The notes below the pieces were generated by a model. The model made no database searches, was not told where the DNA came from, and worked only from the letters and a program-made list of their open reading frames with translations. Below, piece after piece: positions 1 to 32,842 of a stretch of DNA of 64,000 bases. Position numbers and translations under genes: made by a program. Position 1 is the first letter of the stretch. Every line of letters begins with the position of its first letter. The stretch is from Bathymodiolus brooksi (taxonomy: Eukaryota > Mollusca > Bivalvia > Mytilida > Modiolidae). The stretch spans positions 102,143,689 to 102,207,688 of the forward strand of contig OY804578.1 in the NCBI GenBank assembly GCA_963680875.1, given 5' to 3'.

Positions 1-2880
1 CACTCAGCTAATATTATTGTATGTTTTTCTGTTTCAGGCTATTTATTATATTGCACAGTTTCTGTTGTTTTGGGACAGTTACACACATCTAATATTATTG
101 TATGTTTTTTCTGTTTCAGGCTATTTATTATATTGCACATTTCCTGTTGTATTAGAACAGTTACACTCAGCTAATATTATTGTATGTTTTTCTGTTTCAG
201 GCTATTTATTATATTGCACAGTTTCTGTTGTTTTGGGACAGTTACACACAGCTAATATTATTGTATGTTTGTCTGTTTCAGGCTATTTATTATATTGCAC
301 AGTTTCTGTTGTTTTGGGACAGTTACACACAGCTAATATTATTGTATGTTTTTCTGTTTCAGGCTATTTATTATATTGCACAGTTCCTGTTGTATTAGAA
401 CAGTTACACACAGCTAATATTATTGTATGTTTTTCTGTTTCAGGCTATTTATTATATTGCACAGTTTCTGTTGTTTTGGGACAGTTACACACAGCTAATA
501 TTATTGTATGTTTTTCTGTTTCAGGCTATTTATTATATTGCACAGTTTCTGTTGTTTTGGGACAGTTACACACATCTAATATTATTGTATGTTTTTCTGT
601 TTCAGGCTATTTATTATATTGCACAGTTTCTGTTGTTTTGGGACAGTTACACACATCTAATATTATTGTATGTTTTTCTGTTTCAGGCTATTTATTATAT
701 TGCACAGTTTCTGTTGTTTTGGGACAGTTACACTCAGCTAATATTATTGTATGTTTTTCTGTTTCAGGCTATTTATTATATTGCACAGTTTCTGTTGTTT
801 TGGGACAGTTACACACAGCTAATATTATTGTATGTTTTTTCTGTTTCAGGCTATTTATTATATTGCACAGTTTCTGTTGTTTTGGGACAGTTGCACTCAG
901 CTAATATTATTGTATGTTTTTCTGTTTCAGGCTATTTATTATATTGCACAGTTTCTGTTGTTTTGGGACAGTTACACACATCTAATATTATTGTATGTTT
1001 TTTCTGTTTCAGGCTATTTATTATATTGCACATTTCCTGTTGTATTTGAACAGTTACACACAGCTAATATTATTGTATGTTTTTCTGTTTCAGGCTATTT
1101 ATTATATTGCACAGTTTCTGTTGTTTTGGGACAGTTACACACAGCTAATATTATTGTATGTTTGTCTGTTTCAGGCTATTTATTATATTGCACAGTTTCT
1201 GTTGTTTTGGGACAGTTACACACAGCTAATATTATTGTATGTTTTTCTGTTTCAGGCTATTTATTATATTGCACATTTCCTGTTGTATTTGAACAGTTAC
1301 ACACAGCTAATATTATTGTATGTTTTTCTGTTTCAGGCTATTTATTATATTGCACAGTTTCTGTTGTTTTGGGACAGTTACACACAGCTAATATTATTGT
1401 ATGTTTGTCTGTTTCAGGCTATTTATTATATTGCACAGTTTCTGTTGTTTTGGGACAGTTACACACAGCTAATATTATTGTATGTTTTTCTGTTTCAGGC
1501 TATTTATTATATTGCACAGTTCCTGTTGTATTAGAACAGTTACACACAGCTAATATTATTGTATGTTTTTCTGTTTCAGGCTATATATTATATTGCACAG
1601 TTTCTGTTGTTTTGGGACAGTTACACACAGCTAATATTATTGTATGTTTTTCTGTTTCAGGCTATTTATTATATTGCACAGTTTCTGTTGTTTTGGGACA
1701 GTTACACACATCTAATATTATTGTATGTTTTTCTGTTTCAGGCTATTTATTATATTGCACAGTTTCTGTTGTTTTGGGACAGTTACACTCAGCTAATATT
1801 ATTGTATGTTTTTCTGTTTCAGGCTATTTATTATATTGCACAGTTTCTGTTGTTTTGGGACAGTTACACACAGCTAATATTATTGTATGTTTTTTCTGTT
1901 TCAGGCTATTTATTATATTGCACAGTTTCTGTTGTTTTGGGACAGTTGCACTCAGCTAATATTATTGTATGTTTTTCTGTTTCAGGCTATTTATTATATT
2001 GCACAGTTTCTGTTGTTTTGGGACAGTTACACACATCTAATATTATTGTATGTTTTTTCTGTTTCAGGCTATTTATTATATTGCACATTTCCTGTTGTAT
2101 TTGAACAGTTACACTCAGCTAATATTATTGTATGTTTTTCTGTTTCAGGCTATTTATTATATTGCACAGTTTCTGTTGTTTTGGGACAGTTACACACAGC
2201 TAATATTATTGTATGTTTGTCTGTTTCAGGCTATTTATTATATTGCACAGTTTCTGTTGTTTTGGGACAGTTACACACAGCTAATATTATTGTATGTTTT
2301 TCTGTTTCAGGCTATTTATTATATTGCACAGTTCCTGTTGTATTAGAACAGTTACACACAGCTAATATTATTGTATGTTTTTCTGTTTCAGGCTATTTAT
2401 TATATTGCACAGTTTCTGTTGTTTTGGGACAGTTACACACAGCTAATATTATTGTATGTTTTTCTGTTTCAGGCTATTTATTATATTGCACAGTTTCTGT
2501 TGTTTTGGGACAGTTACACACATCTAATATTATTGTATGTTTTTCTGTTTCAGGCTATTTATTATATTGCACAGTTTCTGTTGTTTTGGGACAGTTACAC
2601 TCAGCTAATATTATTGTATGTTTTTCTGTTTCAGACTATTTATTATGTTGCACAGTTTCTGTTGTTTTGGAACAGTTACGCACAACTAATATTATTGTAT
2701 GTTTTTTTCTGTTTCAGGCTATTTATTATATTGCACAGTTTCTGTTGTTTTGGGACAGTTACACACAGCTAATATTATTGTATGTTTTTCTGTTTCAGGC
2801 TATTTATTATATTGCACAGTTTCTGTTGTTTTAGAACAGTTACACACAGCTAGTATATTTTAATCTATGTTTTTCTGTTT
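1..2880 (+). repeat. 81-bp minisatellite derived from a TMEM208 exon and its splice sites
   Basis: About 35 head-to-tail units of 81 bp (82 where a T is added in the T-run). Each unit reads: T-rich tract ending TTTCAG, then 62 bp matching the real TMEM208 exon at 2884-2943, then GTATGT and the next T-rich tract. Because 81 is a multiple of three and the units lack stops in two frames, long repetitive reading frames cross the array; they are not a separate gene. One frame reads AIYYIAQFLLFWDSYT per unit, the same peptide as the true exon. Variant units recur at an offset near 1055 bp (for example 832 and 1887, 995 and 2050), so whole blocks of about 13 units were duplicated. The array copies carry two extra bases (ACACACAGCT versus ACACAGCT), which puts them out of frame with the next exon. 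Confidence 0.93.
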
Positions 2881-2883
2881 CAG

Positions 2884-2943
2884 GTTATTTATTATGCTAC
2901 ACAGTTCCTGTTGTTTTGGGACAGTTACACAGCTGGTATTATT
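2884..2943 (+). CDS. TMEM208: TMEM208 exon, membrane segment
   Basis: A 60-nt phase 0-0 exon between a pyrimidine-rich acceptor ending TTTCAG and donor GTAGGT. It encodes VIYYATQFLLFWDSYT followed by AGII. Joined to the exon at 13812, the stretch from IYY to QFM has exactly the 36 residues that human TMEM208 has from IYC to HSM, which picks this copy out as the functional one among the decoys to its left. The unit immediately upstream has lost the donor sequence. Confidence 0.88.
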
Positions 2944-3289
2944 GTAGGTTAACAGATACAATGTATTGACAACTAATCAGTTTTAACTTGCCTGACCCAG
3001 TTGTATGCTTTTTAATTCTTCTCATGAACCACAAGGCCTATTTAATCCAAAGTTAGGACGAATCATCCTTAAGATGTCTGCTTCCAAAATTTTATTTGAT
3101 GATCCTGCCAATCATTCAACACGGCTGCTATTACTATAAATAGAACATAGGGGGAGGGTAAGACACATCTACAGAGCCATTTAGCAGTAGATAGAGGAGC
3201 TTAATGTGCACTTGATAGACACCGATAAGATGGCAATGTTTTCTTATCTCCCCAGCATGCAGGATGTAAACAACACATCTATTAATTTT
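2944..3289. other. Intron sequence, nothing recognised
   Basis: Start of the 10.9-kb TMEM208 intron. AT-rich, single-copy in appearance, no repeat or coding signal seen. Confidence 0.5.
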
Positions 3290-8555: not shown

Positions 8556-11500
8556 AATATATAGTATACATGTTTATTGCTATTCTATGATACTGTCTGT
8601 ATTTTATCATATAGAATAAATGTTTATTGCTATTCTATGATACTGTCTGTATTTTATCGCATAGTATAAATGTTTATTGCTATTCTATGATACTGTCTGT
8701 ATTTTATCACATAGTATAAATGTTTATTGCTATTCTATGATACTGTCTGTATTTTATCATATAGTATACATGTTTATTGCTATTCTATGATACTGTCTAT
8801 TTTATCATATAGTATAAATATCTATTGCTATTCTATGATACTGTGTATTTTATCGTATAGTATAAATGTTTATTGCTATTCTATGATACTGTCTGTATTT
8901 TATCATATAGTATAAATGTTTATTGTTATTCTATGATACTGTCTGTATTTGATCGTATTGTATATATATTTATTGCTATTCTATGATACTGTCTGTATTT
9001 TATCATACAGTATAAATGTTTATTGCTATTCTATGATACTGTCTGTATTTTATCGTATAGTATAAATGTTTATTGCTATTCTATGATACTGTCTGTATTT
9101 TATCATATAGTATAAATGTTTATTGCTATTCTATGATGCTGTCTGTATTTTATCGTATAGTATAAATGTTTATTGCTATTCTATGATACTGTTTGTATTT
9201 TATCGTATAGTATATATGTTTATTGCTATTCTATGATACTGTCTGTATTTTATCGTATAGTATAAATGTTTATTGATATTCTATGATACTGTCTGTAATT
9301 TATGCATAGTATAAATGTTTATTGCTATTCTATGATACTGTCTGTATTTTATCATATAGTATACATGTTTATTGCTATTCTATGATACTGTCTGTATTTT
9401 ATCGTATAGTATAAATGTTTATTGCTATTCTATGATACTGTCTGTATTTTATTGTATAGTGTAAAGGTTTATTGCTATTCTATGATACTGTGTATTTTAT
9501 CATATAGTATAAATGTTTATTGCTATTCTATGATTCTGTCTGTATTTTATCGTATAGTATAAATGTTTATTGCTATTCTATGATACTGTCTGTATTTTAT
9601 CATATAGTATAAATGTTTATTGATATTCTATGATAATGTCCGTATTTTATCATATAGTATAAATGTTTATTGCTATTCTATGATACTGTCTATTTTATCA
9701 TATAGTATAAATATCTATTGCTATTCTATGATACTGTCTGTATTTTATCGCATAGTATAAATGTTTATTGCTATTCTATGATACTGTCTGTATTTTATCA
9801 CATAGTATAAATGTTTATTGCTATTCTATGATACTGTCTGTATTTTATCATATAGTATAAATGTTTATTGCTATTCTATGATACTGTCTATTTTATCATA
9901 TTGTATAAATATCTATTGCTATTCTATGATACTGTGTATTTTATCGTATAGTATAAATGTGTATTGCTATTCTATGATACTGTCTGTATTTTATCATATA
10001 GTATAAATGTTTATTGTTATTCTATGATACTGTCTGTATTTGATCGTATTGTATATATATTTATTGCTATTCTGTGATACTGTCTGTATTTTATCATACA
10101 GTATAAATGTTTATTGCTATTCTATGATACTGTCTGTATTTTATCGTATAGTATAAATGTTTATTGCTATTCTATGATACTGTCTGTATTTTATCATATA
10201 GTATAAATGTTTATTGCTATTCTATGATGCTGTCTGTATTTTATCGTATAGTATAAATGTTTATTGCTATTCTATGATACTGTTTGTATTTTATCGTATA
10301 GTATAAATGTTTATTGCTATTCTATGATACTGTCTGTATTTTATCGTATAGTATAAATGTTTATTGATATTCTATGATACTGTCTGTCATTTATGTATAG
10401 TATAAATGTTTATTGCTATTCTATGATACTGTGTATTTTATCATATAGTATAAATGTTTATTGCTATTCTATGATACTGTCTGTATTTTATCATATAGTA
10501 TACATGTTTATTGCTATTCTATGATACTGTCTGTATTTTATCGTATAGTATAAATGTTTATTGCTATTCTATGATACTGTCTGTATTTTATTGTATAGTG
10601 TAAAGGTTTATTGCTATTCTATGATACTGTGTATTTTATCATATAGTATAAATGTTTATTGCTATTCTATGATTCTGTCTGTATTTTATCGTATAGTATA
10701 AATGTTTATTGCTATTCTATGATACTGTCTGTATTTTATCGTATAGTATAAATTTTTATTGCTATTCTATGATACTGTCTGTATTTTATCATATAGTATA
10801 AATGTTTATTGCTATTCTATGATACTGTGTATTTTATCGTATAGTATAAATATTTATTACTATTCTATGATACCGTCTGTATTTTATCGTATTGTATATA
10901 TATTTATTGCTATTCTAAGATACTGTCTGTATTTTATCATATAGTATAAATGTTTATTGCTATTCTATGATACTGTCTGTATTTTATCGTATAGTATATA
11001 TATTTATTGCTATTCTATGATACTGTCTATTTTATCATATCGTATAAATGTTTATTACTATTCTATGATACCGTCTGTATTTTATCGTATTGTATATATA
11101 TTTATTGCTATTCTGTGATGATATCTGTATTTTATCATATAGTATAAATGTTTATTGCTATTCTATGATACTCTCTGTATTTTATCGCATAGTATACATG
11201 TTTATTGCTATTCTATGATACTGTCTATTTTATCATATAGTATAAATGTGTATTGCTATTCTATGATACTGTCTGTATTTTATCGTATAGTATAAATGTT
11301 TATTGCTATTCTATGATACTGTCTGTATTTTATCGTATAGTATAAATGTTTATTGCTATTCTATGATACTGTCTGTATTTTATCGCATACATGTAGTATA
11401 AATGTTTATTGCTATTCTATGATACTGTGTATTTTATCGTATAGTATAAATGTTTATTGCTATTCTATGATACTGTCTGTATTTTATCGTATAGTATAAA

Positions 11501-12172
11501 TGTTTATTGCTATTCTATGATACTGTCTGTGTTTTATCGTATAGTATAAATGTTTATTACTATTCTATGATACTGTCTGTATTTTATCGTATAGTATAAA
11601 TGTTTATTGCTATTCTATGATACTGTCTGTATTTTATCGTATAGTATAAATGTTTATTGCTATTCTATGATACTGTCTGTATTTTATCGTATAGTATAAA
11701 TGTTTATTGCTATTATATGATAATGTCTGTATTTTATCGTATAGTATAAATGTTTATTGCTATTCTATGATACTGTCTGTATTTTATCATATAGTATAAA
11801 TGTTTATTACTATTCTATGATACTGTCTGTATTTTATCGTATAGTATAAATGTTTATTGCTATTCTATGATACTGTTTGTATTTTACCGTATAGTATAAA
11901 TGTTTATTGCTATTCTATGATACTGTCTGTATTTTATCGTATAGTATAAATGTTTATTACTATTCTATGATACTGTCTGTATTTTATCGCATAGTATAAA
12001 TGTTTATTGCTATTCTATGATACTGTCTGTATTTTATCGTATGGTATAAATGTGTATTGCTATTCTATGTTACTGTCTGTATTTTATCGTATAGTATAAA
12101 TGTTTATTGCTATTCTATGATACTGTGTATATTATCGCATACATGTAGTATAAATGTTTATTACTATTCTAT
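8556..12172 (+). repeat. 50-bp satellite array
   Basis: About 72 tandem units of 50 bp (TGTTTATTGCTATTCTATGA, TACTGTCTGTATTTTATCGT, ATAGTATAAA), with frequent 46-bp variants lacking four bases of the CTGTCTGT block. Variant units recur at about 1.1-kb spacing (the TTGATCGTATTGTATATAT unit at about 8950 and about 10040), showing higher-order duplication. The short frames that translate it are not genes. Confidence 0.95.
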
Positions 12173-13117
12173 GATTGATAAAGCTTATCTCAACGTACTG
12201 GTCGTGATATCAAAATTATTAGGTCAGTCCATATTAGGCATACGTCAACTACCGCGCATGAATATGCTTGTTTTGAAAAAAGATTGGTTGCGTCATCCAA
12301 ATCAATATTTACGGGAAAAGGTCAATGTCGTGGTCTTAAAACCAAAATGATAGAAAACCAAGAAATAACTACTTTGTAAAGATTGAACATCTTGTTAAGC
12401 TTACATTGTACACACTGCAATTGTATATACACTGCAATATCTAATGTTGACTTAAAATTGAAATCAATCCAAGTACCGAAAAGAGCTAAAATTTAATACA
12501 ACATAGCACTGATCAGTAACAGGGCCGGGAAGACTTAGCTAAAACTTCTGTATTCTGGATATGCAAATATATATACATTAATTAACTTTCTAAAATTAAT
12601 AACATAAAATCATAAATGCCTTCCAAGTGGGATTATTATGGATGTTAATTGATTTGACCTACATTCAGAATATTTCAGTGAAACGTATTCGATACGGTTT
12701 TAGCACAAGTTTTTATGACAAAAATTATTTACCGGTATCATATTCGAACATTATAATTTCCAAAACACACTTAAATCCAACAAAACCATCATAATGTATA
12801 ACACACGTCAAATAGTAAAAAAACACATCTTGCCGCCTCGCTAACTAGTTTTTGAATGAACCTCGCGCCAGAACCGAATCACATTTACAAAACCAGATCC
12901 ATCCGCAAAAAAAAAATCCCATCAAAATATCGCTTTAAAGAATTCATTTTATTATTTTTTTTAAAGTTGATTATTGATTACCGATAAGCAGAATATTAGA
13001 CATTTTGTTTTTGGGACTGACTTTATCACGGGGTATATCAGGCTCGTCATTCCGGCTCACCTGATATACCCCATGATAAAGTCAGTTCCATAAACAAAAT
13101 GCCTAATATTCTGTATT
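12173..13117. other. Non-satellite segment inserted in the satellite array
   Basis: The 50-bp array breaks off inside a unit (CTATTCTATGATT) and resumes inside another (TGATTGCTATTCTATGA). The inserted segment of about 945 bp has no recognised coding sequence and ends in the palindrome at 12989-13113. It may be a foldback-type mobile element or the ancestral intron sequence between two arrays. Confidence 0.6.
12989..13113. repeat. Long palindrome with arms of about 54 bp
   Basis: The left arm begins CAGAATATTAGACATTTTG and contains CTGACTTTATCACGGGGTAT; the right arm is its near-perfect reverse complement ending CCTAATATTCTG. The spacer is about 17 bp (CTCGTCATTCCGGCTCA). It would form a strong hairpin. 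Confidence 0.9.
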
Positions 13118-13783
13118 GATTGCTATTCTATGATACTGTCTGTATTTTATCGTATAGTATAAATGTGTATTGCTATTCTATGATACTCTCTGTATTTTAT
13201 CGTATTGTATATATATTTATTGCTATTCTATGATACTGTCTGTATTTTATCGCATAGTATAAATGTTTATTGTTATTCTACGATACTGTTTGTATTTTAT
13301 CGCATAGTATAAATATTTATTGTTATTCTATGATACTGTGTATTTTTTCATATAGTATTGCTATTCTATGATACTGTCTGTATTTTATTGTATAGTATAA
13401 ATGTTTATTGCTATTCTATGATACTGTCTGTATTTTATTGTATAGTATAAATGTTTATTGCTATTCTATGATACTGTGTATTTTATCGTATAGTATAAAT
13501 GTCTATTGCTATTCTATGATACTGTGTATTTTATCGTATAGTATAAATGTTTATTACTATTCTATGATACTGTCTGTATTTTATCGTATTGTATATATAT
13601 TTATTGCTATTCTATGATACTGTCTGTATTTTATCGTATAGTATAAATGTTTATTGCTATTCTATGATACTGTCTGTATTTTATCGTATAGTATAAATGT
13701 TTATTGCTATTCTATGATACTGTCTGTATATTATCATATAGTATGAATGTTTATTGCTATCCTATGATACTCTCTGACTCTGT
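13118..13783 (+). repeat. 50-bp satellite array, second block
   Basis: About 13 more units of the same 50-bp repeat. The array stops about 30 bp before the splice acceptor of the next TMEM208 exon. Confidence 0.93.
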
Positions 13784-13811: not shown

Positions 13812-13915
13812 TTTTTGTCATTGTTAGCAGCAGCTGTATAGTTTGGTAGTTATCAGTTTATGTCACACATGGCAGGCAGTGAAATAGATCTCAATATGAG
13901 TGAAGGAATGTCAGA
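13812..13915 (+). CDS. TMEM208: TMEM208 exon with an in-frame TAG
   Basis: Acceptor TATTTTACAG and donor GTAAGT; enters in phase 0 and leaves in phase 2. It encodes FLSLLAAAV, then TAG at 13839-13841, then FGSYQFMSHMAGSEIDLNM and SEGMSE. Human TMEM208 has Tyr at the TAG position (LAVYGASY), so TAT or TAC to TAG is one substitution. The change also makes a new AG: splicing after 13841 would drop exactly ten codons and keep the frame. Splice sites and the rest of the exon look intact. Confidence 0.85.
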
Positions 13916-15815: not shown

Positions 15816-15900
15816 GCATGCTAAAAATATACTTTTGTTTACATCTATTGTGCAAGGCTTGACATTAATATCAAATTATTTCTGGTTATTATGGCTAGTG
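15816..15900 (+). CDS. TMEM208: TMEM208 exon, second membrane segment
   Basis: 85 nt, phase 2 to 0, acceptor TTTTTCTGTTTCAG and donor GTAAGT. It encodes (E)HAKNILLFTSIVQGL followed by TLISNYFWLLWLV. The human counterpart is HLKDVILLTAIVQVL then a hydrophobic run ending in Leu. Length and hydrophobicity agree with the family. Confidence 0.92.
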
Positions 15901-19155: not shown

Positions 19156-19611
<456 letters not shown>

Positions 19612-29397: not shown

Positions 29398-29426
29398 TGG
29401 TAATATTGAAAGTGGTGTTAAACACC
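29398..29426 (+). mobile_element. 3' end of a SINE family 2 copy
   Basis: GTAATATTGAAAGTGGTG and GTTAAACA match the last 28 bp of the family, then run directly into CCCTAA repeats. Confidence 0.7.
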
Positions 29427-29952
29427 CTAACCCTAACACTAACTCTAACCCTAACCATAATCCTATCCCTAACTCACCCTAATCCTAACCCTATCCCTAA
29501 CCCTAACACTAACTCTAACCCTAACCCTAACCCTAATCCTAACCCTATCCCTAACTCTAACCCTAACCCTAATCCTAACCTTATCCCTAACACTATCCCT
29601 AACCCTAACCCTAACCATATCCCTAACCCTAATCCTAACCCTATCCCTAACTCACCCTAATCCTAACCCTATCCCTAACCCTAACCCTAACACTAACTCT
29701 AACCCTAACCCTAACCCTAATCCTAACCCTATCCCTAACTCTAACCCTAACCCTAATCCTAACCCTATCCTAACCCTATCCCTAACCCTAACCCTAACTC
29801 TAACCCTAACCCTAACCCTAACACTATCCCTAACCCTATCCCTAACCCTAACTCTAACCCTAACCCTATCCCTAACTCTAACCCTAACCATAATCCTAAC
29901 CCTATCCCTAACCCTATCCCTAACCCTAACCCTAATCCTAACCCTAACCCTG
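29424..29952 (+). repeat. Interstitial telomere-type (CCCTAA) array, degenerate
   Basis: About 530 bp of CCCTAA hexamers with regular variants CCTATC, ACTAAC, TCTAAC and CCTAAT. It is internal in this window, flanked by SINE sequence on the left and unique sequence on the right, so it is not a chromosome end. Frames reading PNPNPN or RVRVRV translate the array. Confidence 0.93.
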
Positions 29953-32842
29953 ACCAATTATAAATAATGTACCATCTCTTGTCCTCATGTGTTATTGATT
30001 TTCTTGGTCAAATGGGATGGAAGTTATAGATGGTCGTGCCCAGACTTGTTTTAGGAACATGACTCAATATGGTGAACACTTTGCTTTGTTCTTGAGGGAA
30101 AACCCCTTAGTTATCGTACAAATTAATTGATAAATATTGATGTTACAAAGTAACCTGGTCGGTCAGTTTGAACTTCAAACAGTTTTTTTTTTCTCTCTTA
30201 ATAATGTTGGTATAATACCTCATCCTCGTAGCTACTTCAACATAAGGTTCTTAACAGAAATGTTCTATAATTAAGTCCCACCAAATAGTTAGAAAGAATA
30301 TGGTTACAGCACACGTGTACAAACATATCTGTTGTTTTCCCCACATAATCTGCATATTTTAACAGTGGAGTCTGGTATGGTTGAAATCCATTTAGCAATA
30401 CTTGGTATCGATTTTTCTCTCGGGGTAACTAGATTTCCCCTGTCTACTGAATAAAACGGATCTTTTATTGTAAAATCAACTTAAAAACATGGGTTAAACG
30501 TATTTTTTATTGCACCAGCTTTGAATTGTATAACTTCCCATTTTCTTTCGGATTTAATTTTCTTCCATGGAGTTGAAACGAGGATAAAATGCCACACTGA
30601 GCATGTCTATTCTATAAACAGCCACCGTTGAACTGTAACATTTTACGATATCATTTCCATTTAAAGGAATACGGATCTGTGCATATGTTTCAGGTGAGGT
30701 TTTAAATTTGTTTCAACTTTTGTTTTATTAGATTTCTATACTTTCTTAACTGCATGCACTATGACTAGGATATTGAAGACTATAATAATATATCAGATTG
30801 GATACTTGTAACACCCCCATGCAAGGGGAATATCGTTCATTCAAGTTGAGTTGAAATGAATAATAGAAACGTTAAGCAGTTTAAGACTAGTACTAGTACA
30901 TCTTAAATATATATATAAATTGTAAGTATTTGTAGATATACTTAAGCTTTATTATTCTACAGACACAATTTAGAAATGTACCGGTGCCGTGGTGGCAGTA
31001 TTAGGTGCCGTGCCACTATTTATTCCCTAAAATAATTTCTGATATTCGTGTATATAATTTTTTTCTCAGGAAGTCTGTTTTTAATATTTTGACTTTGGGC
31101 GTACTTGGTGAAGGTTATTCAAAAACATGTCATGCCAAAGAAATTGAACATTTTCGTCTGTTAGGATCTTATTTCGGAAATGTCATTAAGCAGAAAAAAA
31201 ACCTCTCATGACTACATTTTTTACGACATCAAAACAAGTGGCCGTCGTATTATATTATGGTTGTGTCGTCGTCTGTGAAAAAAGTGGCCGTCGTGCGATA
31301 ACTTTAGTTGTAGTTGACTGATCCTTCTGTATTTTAAGCACAATATAATTATTTTGATATTTACCTCTGACAACGGGAGCAACCACTACCGGTGTAATAG
31401 TGGATACGTCTATTTTATACTAAGTTTTATTTACATACAACACATAGACTAAAAGCAAAAATATGTATAACAAAATGTTCATAGTGTGACATTAGTATTT
31501 CTATATAAGTAGACAATTGATAGTTTCCATACAGTAATCAGACAGTTTCCATACAGTAATACGATAAAAAGAATCATAAGAGTTTGAGGGTTATTGATAT
31601 TGGCATAATATTTTTAAAAGGCGTCTAAATGGAGCCTAAATTCCTCAATTTAACATAAACAGAAAGAAATGGAAATAAATTTAAGACAAAAACGTTGTAA
31701 GTAAAAGCATTAACATCCCTTAAATGGAAGGCACAGGCTACGAATACGACGGAAACGTATGTGTAGCCTGGGTTCTACAAGTACGACGGGTGGAAGTTGT
31801 GACTAAATGGTCAACCGATTTTCGGACATGGACAGCTATTTTACGGAAATCAATCACGTATTGCTAGAATCTAGAGGCTACGAATACGACGGATTTCTCG
31901 ATTTTCTTAATTCTTTTGTTTTTATTTCATTAAATGACAATTTATGAATTTTTTTATATAATTTTCTGTTTGTAGTTTATTTTTATTCCAATAAAATCTG
32001 ATGCATTGGAAAACTAGTCTTACAATACACGATTAAGCCCATATATTGTGCTGTTATGAGTACTTCTCAGAGTACAACTCACACTTCTCAACACTAATTA
32101 TTTTCAAAATGGACGACGATGGTAGTGCGCTCTGTGTTGGAGCAAAGCATCAATCTTTTACAGATTTAGAGTGCGCCCTAAACAAAATTCCAGCAGGATA
32201 ACTACGTCGAACTTTATAATAGTAGCGCATGAAAGCTTGGTACGGGATCTAATCTAAATCCCAGAGCCTTTTGCTTTCAATCTGGGTTCAAAAATGATTA
32301 AATCTTACGACAGTTCAATAAATGTTCTTTTCCAAGTAAATAATACAGGGTCTATGAACCACTAGTTGTTTGGCAGGAACAAAATTGCCAGAAATAATTA
32401 ATTACGACCTCTGAAAAGAGAAGAACAAAACTACGTGGACTAGTAAGTGTGTAAGGTGAACATAAATATATAAAATAAGGATGCAATGTTTGTTTTTTCC
32501 CCTGGGTTTGTTATGCATATAGTTCAACAAAAATCTAAAGAATACAATACTGTATGTGAGGAAATCCCGAATAAAAATAGTCACAGCTATTTAGACAATT
32601 CATGTAAGTGATTCTAAAATCAAATAAAAAAAAATAAATGTGTGAGAAATTTGTGAATATAAATTTTATACTCCTTATTTGTCTTGTCTCTGTGTCTAAA
32701 TTGAATCTGAATTTCTTTGCTGAATACATTAGCCTTTTTTCTTCTTTTAGAATTAAAAAAAAATATTTTTCAGAGAAAGTGATAAAACACCTAACATCAG
32801 GAAAAATTTCATCTCCTTAAAGTGGCACCTTGGTAGTGAAGG
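29953..32842. other. Intergenic sequence upstream of the Ig receptor gene
   Basis: No gene supported. Two copies of AGGCTACGAATACGACGGA (31735 and 31871) and a block CCGTCGTATTATATTATGG (31243) that recurs in diverged form near 8450 are the only local signals. The promoter of the downstream gene should lie near the right end but no TATA box is evident. Confidence 0.35.

Follow-up and report, generated by a model that had tools for sequence, protein, structure and literature searches.

The 64,000-nucleotide stretch analyzed here (the window; C4:102143689-102207688 of a 2.0-Gb assembly of Bathymodiolus brooksi, where coordinates prefixed C4 are those of the whole contig) carries four exons of the gene TMEM208 and, directly in front of the first of them, the right part of an array of 81-bp units, each a diverged copy of that exon together with splice signals. 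A second TMEM208 locus with such an array lies on the same contig; the window locus is termed copy A, the second one copy B, and the exon copies within the arrays decoys. The array and the exons of copy A are as follows.

1 to 2883, plus strand: 81-bp minisatellite, right-hand portion with 35 complete decoy-exon units; the left end of the array lies 3.9 kb to the left of the window.
2799 to 2883, plus strand: edge unit 35, 85 bp, with the acceptor retained, the donor GTATGT lost (CTATGT) and a TAG in the exon frame.
2884 to 2943, plus strand: TMEM208 exon 3, 60 nucleotides, VIYYATQFLLFWDSYTAGII, donor GTAGGT; borders in agreement with the homolog P0002.
13812 to 13915, plus strand: TMEM208 exon 4.
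15816 to 15900, plus strand: TMEM208 exon 5.
19489 to 19611, plus strand: TMEM208 exon 6, stop codon included.
C4:102139192-102139287, outside the window: TMEM208 exon 2, from whole-genome data.

The exons near 13812, 15816, and 19489 were located by tblastn with a human TMEM208 sequence. Joined to 2884-2943, they match Pfam family PF05620 (E value of 3.8e-24), and a protein search for homologs returned 108 proteins at E values of 1e-5 or lower among 118 candidates, so that the TMEM208 identity proposed in a preliminary description of this DNA is borne out. The top match is P0002, a protein of 157 amino acids from a 1,014-nucleotide contig that carries all exons, which suggests a spliced transcript; the top match from a named species is a Mytilus californianus protein, which places the source among bivalves near the mussels. 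Around the exon 3 segment P0002 reads ...GVN/VIYYIVQFLLFWDSYTAGII/FLSLL... (slashes mark borders), and because this unbroken homolog agrees with the borders at 2884 and 2943, they are confirmed. Exon 1, with the start codon, was not located in copy A or copy B, and human TMEM208 had no match among solved structures at an E value of 0.001 or lower.

Tandem Repeats Finder reports for positions 1 to 2950 a period of 81 bp, 36.3 copies, and 94% matches. When the window is split at TTTCAG, 36 acceptors are obtained, which correspond to the 35 complete decoy units and the terminal exon at 2884. All but one of these decoys are 62 nucleotides long and end with ATT/GTATGT (34/35), and the next acceptor follows after 19 nucleotides in 28 cases, 20 in five, and 21 in one. 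They start with CAG/GCT, except for a single CAG/ACT among the 35, and only the terminal exon of copy A starts with CAG/GTT. A branch-like CTAAT lies 27 nucleotides upstream of the acceptors in the decoy consensus. Alignment of the units with 2884-2943, as had been proposed, shows that 53 of 60 columns are equal between the decoy consensus and the terminal exon, with an additional 2-nucleotide AC insertion in the decoys; individual units in the window differ from the exon at 7 to 11 positions per 60. The likeness well exceeds chance: the local alignment score is 79, whereas 500 dinucleotide shuffles reached at most 32 and the best score elsewhere in the window was 25.

Across its full length, the array of copy A starts at C4:102139748 and comprises 84 decoys and the terminal exon. 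TTTCAG is present at all 85 acceptors, the terminal exon's included, and 83 of the 84 decoys are 62 nucleotides long, are followed by GTATGT, and are out of frame with the following exon by two bases; the remaining decoy has no donor. The preliminary description was thus right about exon-derived 81-bp units with splice sites (35 acceptors and 34/35 GTATGT donors in the window). Its figure of about 35 decoys with 19-bp gaps holds for the window, in which 28 gaps are of that length, but not for the total of 84 or for the six gaps of 20 to 21 nucleotides, and its statement of a two-base frame offset for all decoys applies to 83 of them but not to the one lacking a donor. Only 14 unit types occur among the 84 decoys of copy A, and a lag of 24 units gives identity in 47 of 60, indicating that this array grew via block copying. 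The order of unit types in the window is likewise nonrandom (13 repeated pairs, compared with 2.9 on average after shuffling; none of 2,000 shuffles reached 13).

Two of the three forward frames are open across many 81-bp units in window positions 1 to 2860, with stop-free frames of up to 378 amino acids, and open reading frames (ORFs) internal to the array are found in protein databases as hypothetical proteins. A unit segment had no exact match among viral contigs, and Rfam at gathering thresholds gave no match within the window.

In the whole genome at least 97 matches to the unit were found (match counts are lower bounds), all at two places and each directly before TMEM208 exon 3. Copy B, at C4:86156779-86157743 and 16 Mb from copy A, has 11 decoys followed by exon 3. 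A protein search of the genome with P0002 gave 69 matches, and the ten with E values below 0.1 all fall within the copy A and copy B loci. With only same-strand matches of at least 150 bp near the diagonal counted, colinear blocks run from C4:102117492 to 102171304 (53.8 kb) at copy A and from 86130226 to 86189948 at copy B, and those longer than 1 kb outside the arrays are about 90 to 94% identical. Because matches extend to both ends of the copy B stretch that was compared, the duplication, of at least 53 kb, may continue further. This two-copy result supersedes a reading of the locus as a single pseudogene. At both loci the 81-bp units run head to tail with 94 to 95% matches, the copy number being 85.2 at A and 12.2 at B, and an acceptor and a donor are present in 83/84 decoys at A and 11/11 at B, adjoining the parent exon. 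By its anatomy, the array is both a minisatellite and a tandem exon duplication.

Arrays borne by mobile elements have been described in an oyster (PMC7492417), and the array could accordingly be viewed as the internal repeat of a Helitron-like element that captured exon 3. An ORF from a JGI contig, P0110, which links reversed intron 3 sequence to the array, might be taken in favor of this view. However, even with counts that are lower bounds, the unit is seen at two TMEM208 loci only, both within the colinear duplication, and we consider capture by such an element very unlikely.

The origin of the unit can be approached through a short direct repeat, one member of which lies in the window.

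2934 to 2946, plus strand: TGGTATTATTGTA, one member of a 13-bp direct repeat (measured on copy B), spanning the border of exon 3 and intron 3.

This sequence recurs at the exon 3/intron 3 border in both copies, and its partner TGGTATTATTGTA lies in intron 2, directly left of the array and outside the window. When the array is removed from copy B, the two members are exactly 81 bp apart, which is the period of the array. No direct repeat in the joined sequence is longer than 13 bp, a length reached by none of 500 dinucleotide shuffles (mean, 6.7; maximum, 12). Sequence at the unit borders is exon-like before the 13-bp repeat and intron 2-like after it, a pattern that fits slippage or unequal exchange within the repeat and that makes the decoy donor GTATGT a piece of intron 2 sequence. 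Both arrays share their left edge and the AC insertion, and the left flank is common to both copies up to the first unit, barring a few bases further out. At the left edge the gap is 21 nucleotides and the exon 60 nucleotides; we infer that the AC insertion and the loss of two T residues in the gap together hold the period at 81. The left flank (AHFKIVSDISTHGII in P0113, a protein from another public contig) was also considered as an old copy of exon 3 and was dropped, as identity just beyond the direct repeat is 13/30.

These features suggest the following course of events. An ancestor would have carried the 13-bp repeats 81 bp apart, at the 3' end of intron 2 and at the exon 3/intron 3 border, and slippage in replication or unequal exchange between them would have duplicated exon 3 along with the polypyrimidine tract and acceptor in front of it. 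The GTATGT "donor" of the decoys would be intron 2 sequence that reads as a donor by chance. An early unit then presumably acquired AC, whereby the exon became 62 nucleotides long, the gap 19, and the unit out of frame, and it was this version that was amplified. The duplication of at least 53 kb gave rise to the two TMEM208 loci on one contig, probably after these steps; copy B now has 11 diverse decoys, whereas the 84 of copy A would have spread mostly as blocks in a 24-unit higher-order repeat. A point to be held against this scheme is that the 13-bp direct repeat is known from present-day sequence alone. Nor is array size generally greater in copy A, as a 156-bp array has 8.5 copies there and 9.4 in copy B and a 17-bp array has 20.4 and 44.4 copies, respectively.

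A minisatellite with a period of 50 bp lies in intron 3 of copy A in two blocks.

8560 to 12175, unstranded: first block, 72.6 copies of the 50-bp repeat, as against 18.6 copies in the copy B array with this period.
13119 to 13776, unstranded: second block, 13.5 copies of the 50-bp repeat; it stops 35 bp short of exon 4.

Together (72.6 plus 13.5 copies) they make the 50-bp array more than four times larger in copy A than in copy B, and the second block lies right before a TMEM208 acceptor.

Copy B appears intact over exons 2 to 6 (468 nucleotides), which are in frame to the normal stop and have GTAAGT donors on exons 2 to 5 and AG acceptors; 5 of 155 residues differ from P0002. Copy A differs from P0002 at 11 of 155 residues, the stop counted, and shows damage at two positions in the window.

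13839 to 13841, plus strand: exon 4 of copy A, stop codon TAG in the reading frame; TAT (Tyr) in copy B.
15826 to 15828, plus strand: AAT (Asn) in exon 5 of copy A; GAT (Asp) in copy B and Asp in 104/104 aligned homologs.

Tyr is found at the position of the TAG in 76 of the 99 homologs that have a residue there. The count of 104 was reached from 110 proteins after six fragments or odd records had been dropped (a 20-residue exon peptide, P0099, P0106, P0108, P0109, and P0110). Left of the window, the exon 2 donor reads GTAAAT/GAAAGT in copy A against GTAAAT/GTAAGT in copy B, i.e., GA in place of GT. Because of this GA donor, the in-frame TAG, and Asn at a position where all 104 homologs have Asp, copy A looks like a dead gene copy.

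Several observations weigh against a simple reading of copy A as dead. Between A and B, divergence is lower in the exons (14/468 sites) than in the longer flank blocks (6 to 10%), and exons 2 to 6 show 10 nonsynonymous changes, one of which is the stop, and 4 synonymous ones, with a pN/pS of 0.61. Although these are only 14 changes, they are compatible with copy A having been under constraint for at least part of its history. Moreover, the defects, each a single-base change, could represent a null allele or assembly errors. If so, copy A might be a working gene with 84 decoys, with defects that stem from faulty sequencing or assembly or from a rare null allele; exons 2 to 6 without a frameshift, otherwise canonical splice sites, and exons that diverge less than the flanks would be in keeping with this. 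Set against it are three separate defects (the GA donor, the TAG, and the Asp-to-Asn change) and more amino acid change than in copy B, and we regard a working copy A as improbable. The preliminary description took 2884-2943 as the exon of a working gene that is selected over the decoys, a claim that these three defects do not bear out. The question of splicing choice applies instead to copy B, intact-looking and with 11 decoys.

In copy B, nine decoys are 62 nucleotides long, one 66, and one 65; they belong to 10 unit types among 11. TTTCAG is found at 11 of the 12 acceptors and TCGCAG at the other. The acceptors of decoys and exon 3 are alike, whereas the donors differ, being GTAAGT at exon 3 and GTATGT at 11/11 decoys. 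GTAAGT matches U1 RNA better than GTATGT does. Therefore, exon 3 of copy B, which alone among the near-identical exons has the consensus donor, would probably be the one taken by the spliceosome, by exon definition. The decoy donors would be weaker, lie inside the polypyrimidine tract of the next unit, and be too close to the next acceptor, at 19 nucleotides, for removal of an intron. An intron of 43 nucleotides is reported to be spliced in human cells (PMC4463651), and since the gap of 19 nucleotides is far below this length, adjacent decoys should not join each other.

Spliced in silico to the later exons, 9 of the 11 copy B decoys reach a stop at residue 60 and one at residue 52, so that decoy inclusion would mostly lead to an early stop and transcript decay. 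An alternative is that the decoys are functional and that the array is a splicing attenuator. Its unproductive exons would attract splicing factors, and intron detention or nonsense-mediated decay would then reduce the output of TMEM208. Such a role would be in line with the retention of an AG acceptor and GTATGT in 11/11 copy B decoys, 10 of which would shift the frame, and with decoy exons that promote intron retention in human OGT, as described in PMC12017769. However, the damaged copy A also keeps these signals (84/84 acceptors and 83/84 donors), so that recent copying accounts for them; we consider an attenuator unlikely. A broader possibility, that the decoys form a tunable splicing sink and that array growth contributed to the death of copy A, is given somewhat more weight but still appears doubtful.

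The remaining copy B decoy, the 66-nucleotide unit at C4:86157265-86157330, is open and in frame through the end of the gene and is thus a possible alternative exon. It is also what would speak for the decoys as a cluster of mutually exclusive exons, i.e., alternative versions of exon 3. Yet the frame is broken by 10 of 11 decoys in copy B, and 83 of 84 in copy A are 62 nucleotides long; with frame-keeping decoys numbering 0/84 at A and 1/11 at B, such a cluster seems very unlikely. We favor, as likely, an exon-derived minisatellite that arose through slippage or unequal exchange and is a by-product rather than a regulatory organ, with exon 3 probably being the one chosen in copy B.

The array is also present in other public contigs, as judged from proteins matching its ORFs. 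An array ORF used as a protein query found one protein (the 7,994 candidates with the most shared words were scored) and a shorter one found four. P0113, from an ENA contig of 916 bp, agrees with copy A's left edge at 90/97 residues and ends in the right-edge sequence of unit 35 after about three units, representing a short allele or a collapsed assembly, and P0111 (ENA, 4,385-bp contig) ends in this edge sequence too. P0110 (1,288-bp contig) agrees with copy B at 77/78 residues in the array and at 87/91 in reversed intron 3; its layout, with intron 3 in reverse followed by forward units and then a reverse unit, makes a chimeric contig of locus B probable, with a real inversion as the alternative. 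From these three matches, both loci appear to be present in other public assemblies, and the number of units seems to differ between assemblies, unless an assembly is collapsed. A further ENA contig (394,944 bp) encodes P0109, an exon 4 ORF in which the Tyr is intact and which has four exon differences from copy B; it may come from another species or from a third copy absent from this assembly.

Elsewhere in the window, positions 29424 to 29955 hold a degenerate array of the telomere-type hexamer ACCCTA (89.5 copies, 81% matches), possibly an interstitial telomeric stretch. Downstream of TMEM208, several plus-strand ORFs between 34464 and 45308 resemble immunoglobulin-type domains by eye.

Overall, the interpretation offered in the preliminary description is partly supported. 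The finding is real and unusual and its likely origin clear, but the case is weaker than first hoped because the copy with 84 decoys looks dead and decoy function is putative. It illustrates how a coding exon, splice signals included, can turn into a satellite unit, in a case where the likely founding direct repeat is still visible. Moreover, copy B, which looks intact and has 11 decoys, and its damaged paralog, which has 84, form a matched pair, a natural setting for testing how the spliceosome picks one exon among near-identical neighbors and to what extent a gene can withstand array growth.

In the non-subscription literature searched, judged by title and the start of the abstract, no satellite built from an exon and its own splice sites came to light. 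Four known systems come close; they are compared here as far as the accessible part of each paper describes them. Tandem exon duplications (PMC9013439) likewise place a duplicated exon beside the original within one gene; here, however, there are 11 and 84 copies in an 81-bp register with gaps of 19 to 21 nucleotides, out of frame bar one exception and forming a higher-order minisatellite in copy A. The earthworm metallothionein gene with exon 4 duplications (PMC12783039) also carries an intronic minisatellite, but repeat and exon copies are separate there, whereas here the exon is the repeat unit. In the polyubiquitin array of UBC (PMC10809524), splice sites similarly recur with each tandem unit; its monomers are delimited by dual-specific AGGT sites, whereas each unit here has a separate donor 19 to 21 nucleotides before the next acceptor. 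Finally, the regulatory decoy exons in retained introns of OGT (PMC12017769) resemble the units described here in being intronic exons that look splice competent and whose inclusion yields no useful product; their function as decoys has been demonstrated, whereas the TMEM208 decoys are many near-identical copies with at most a putative function.
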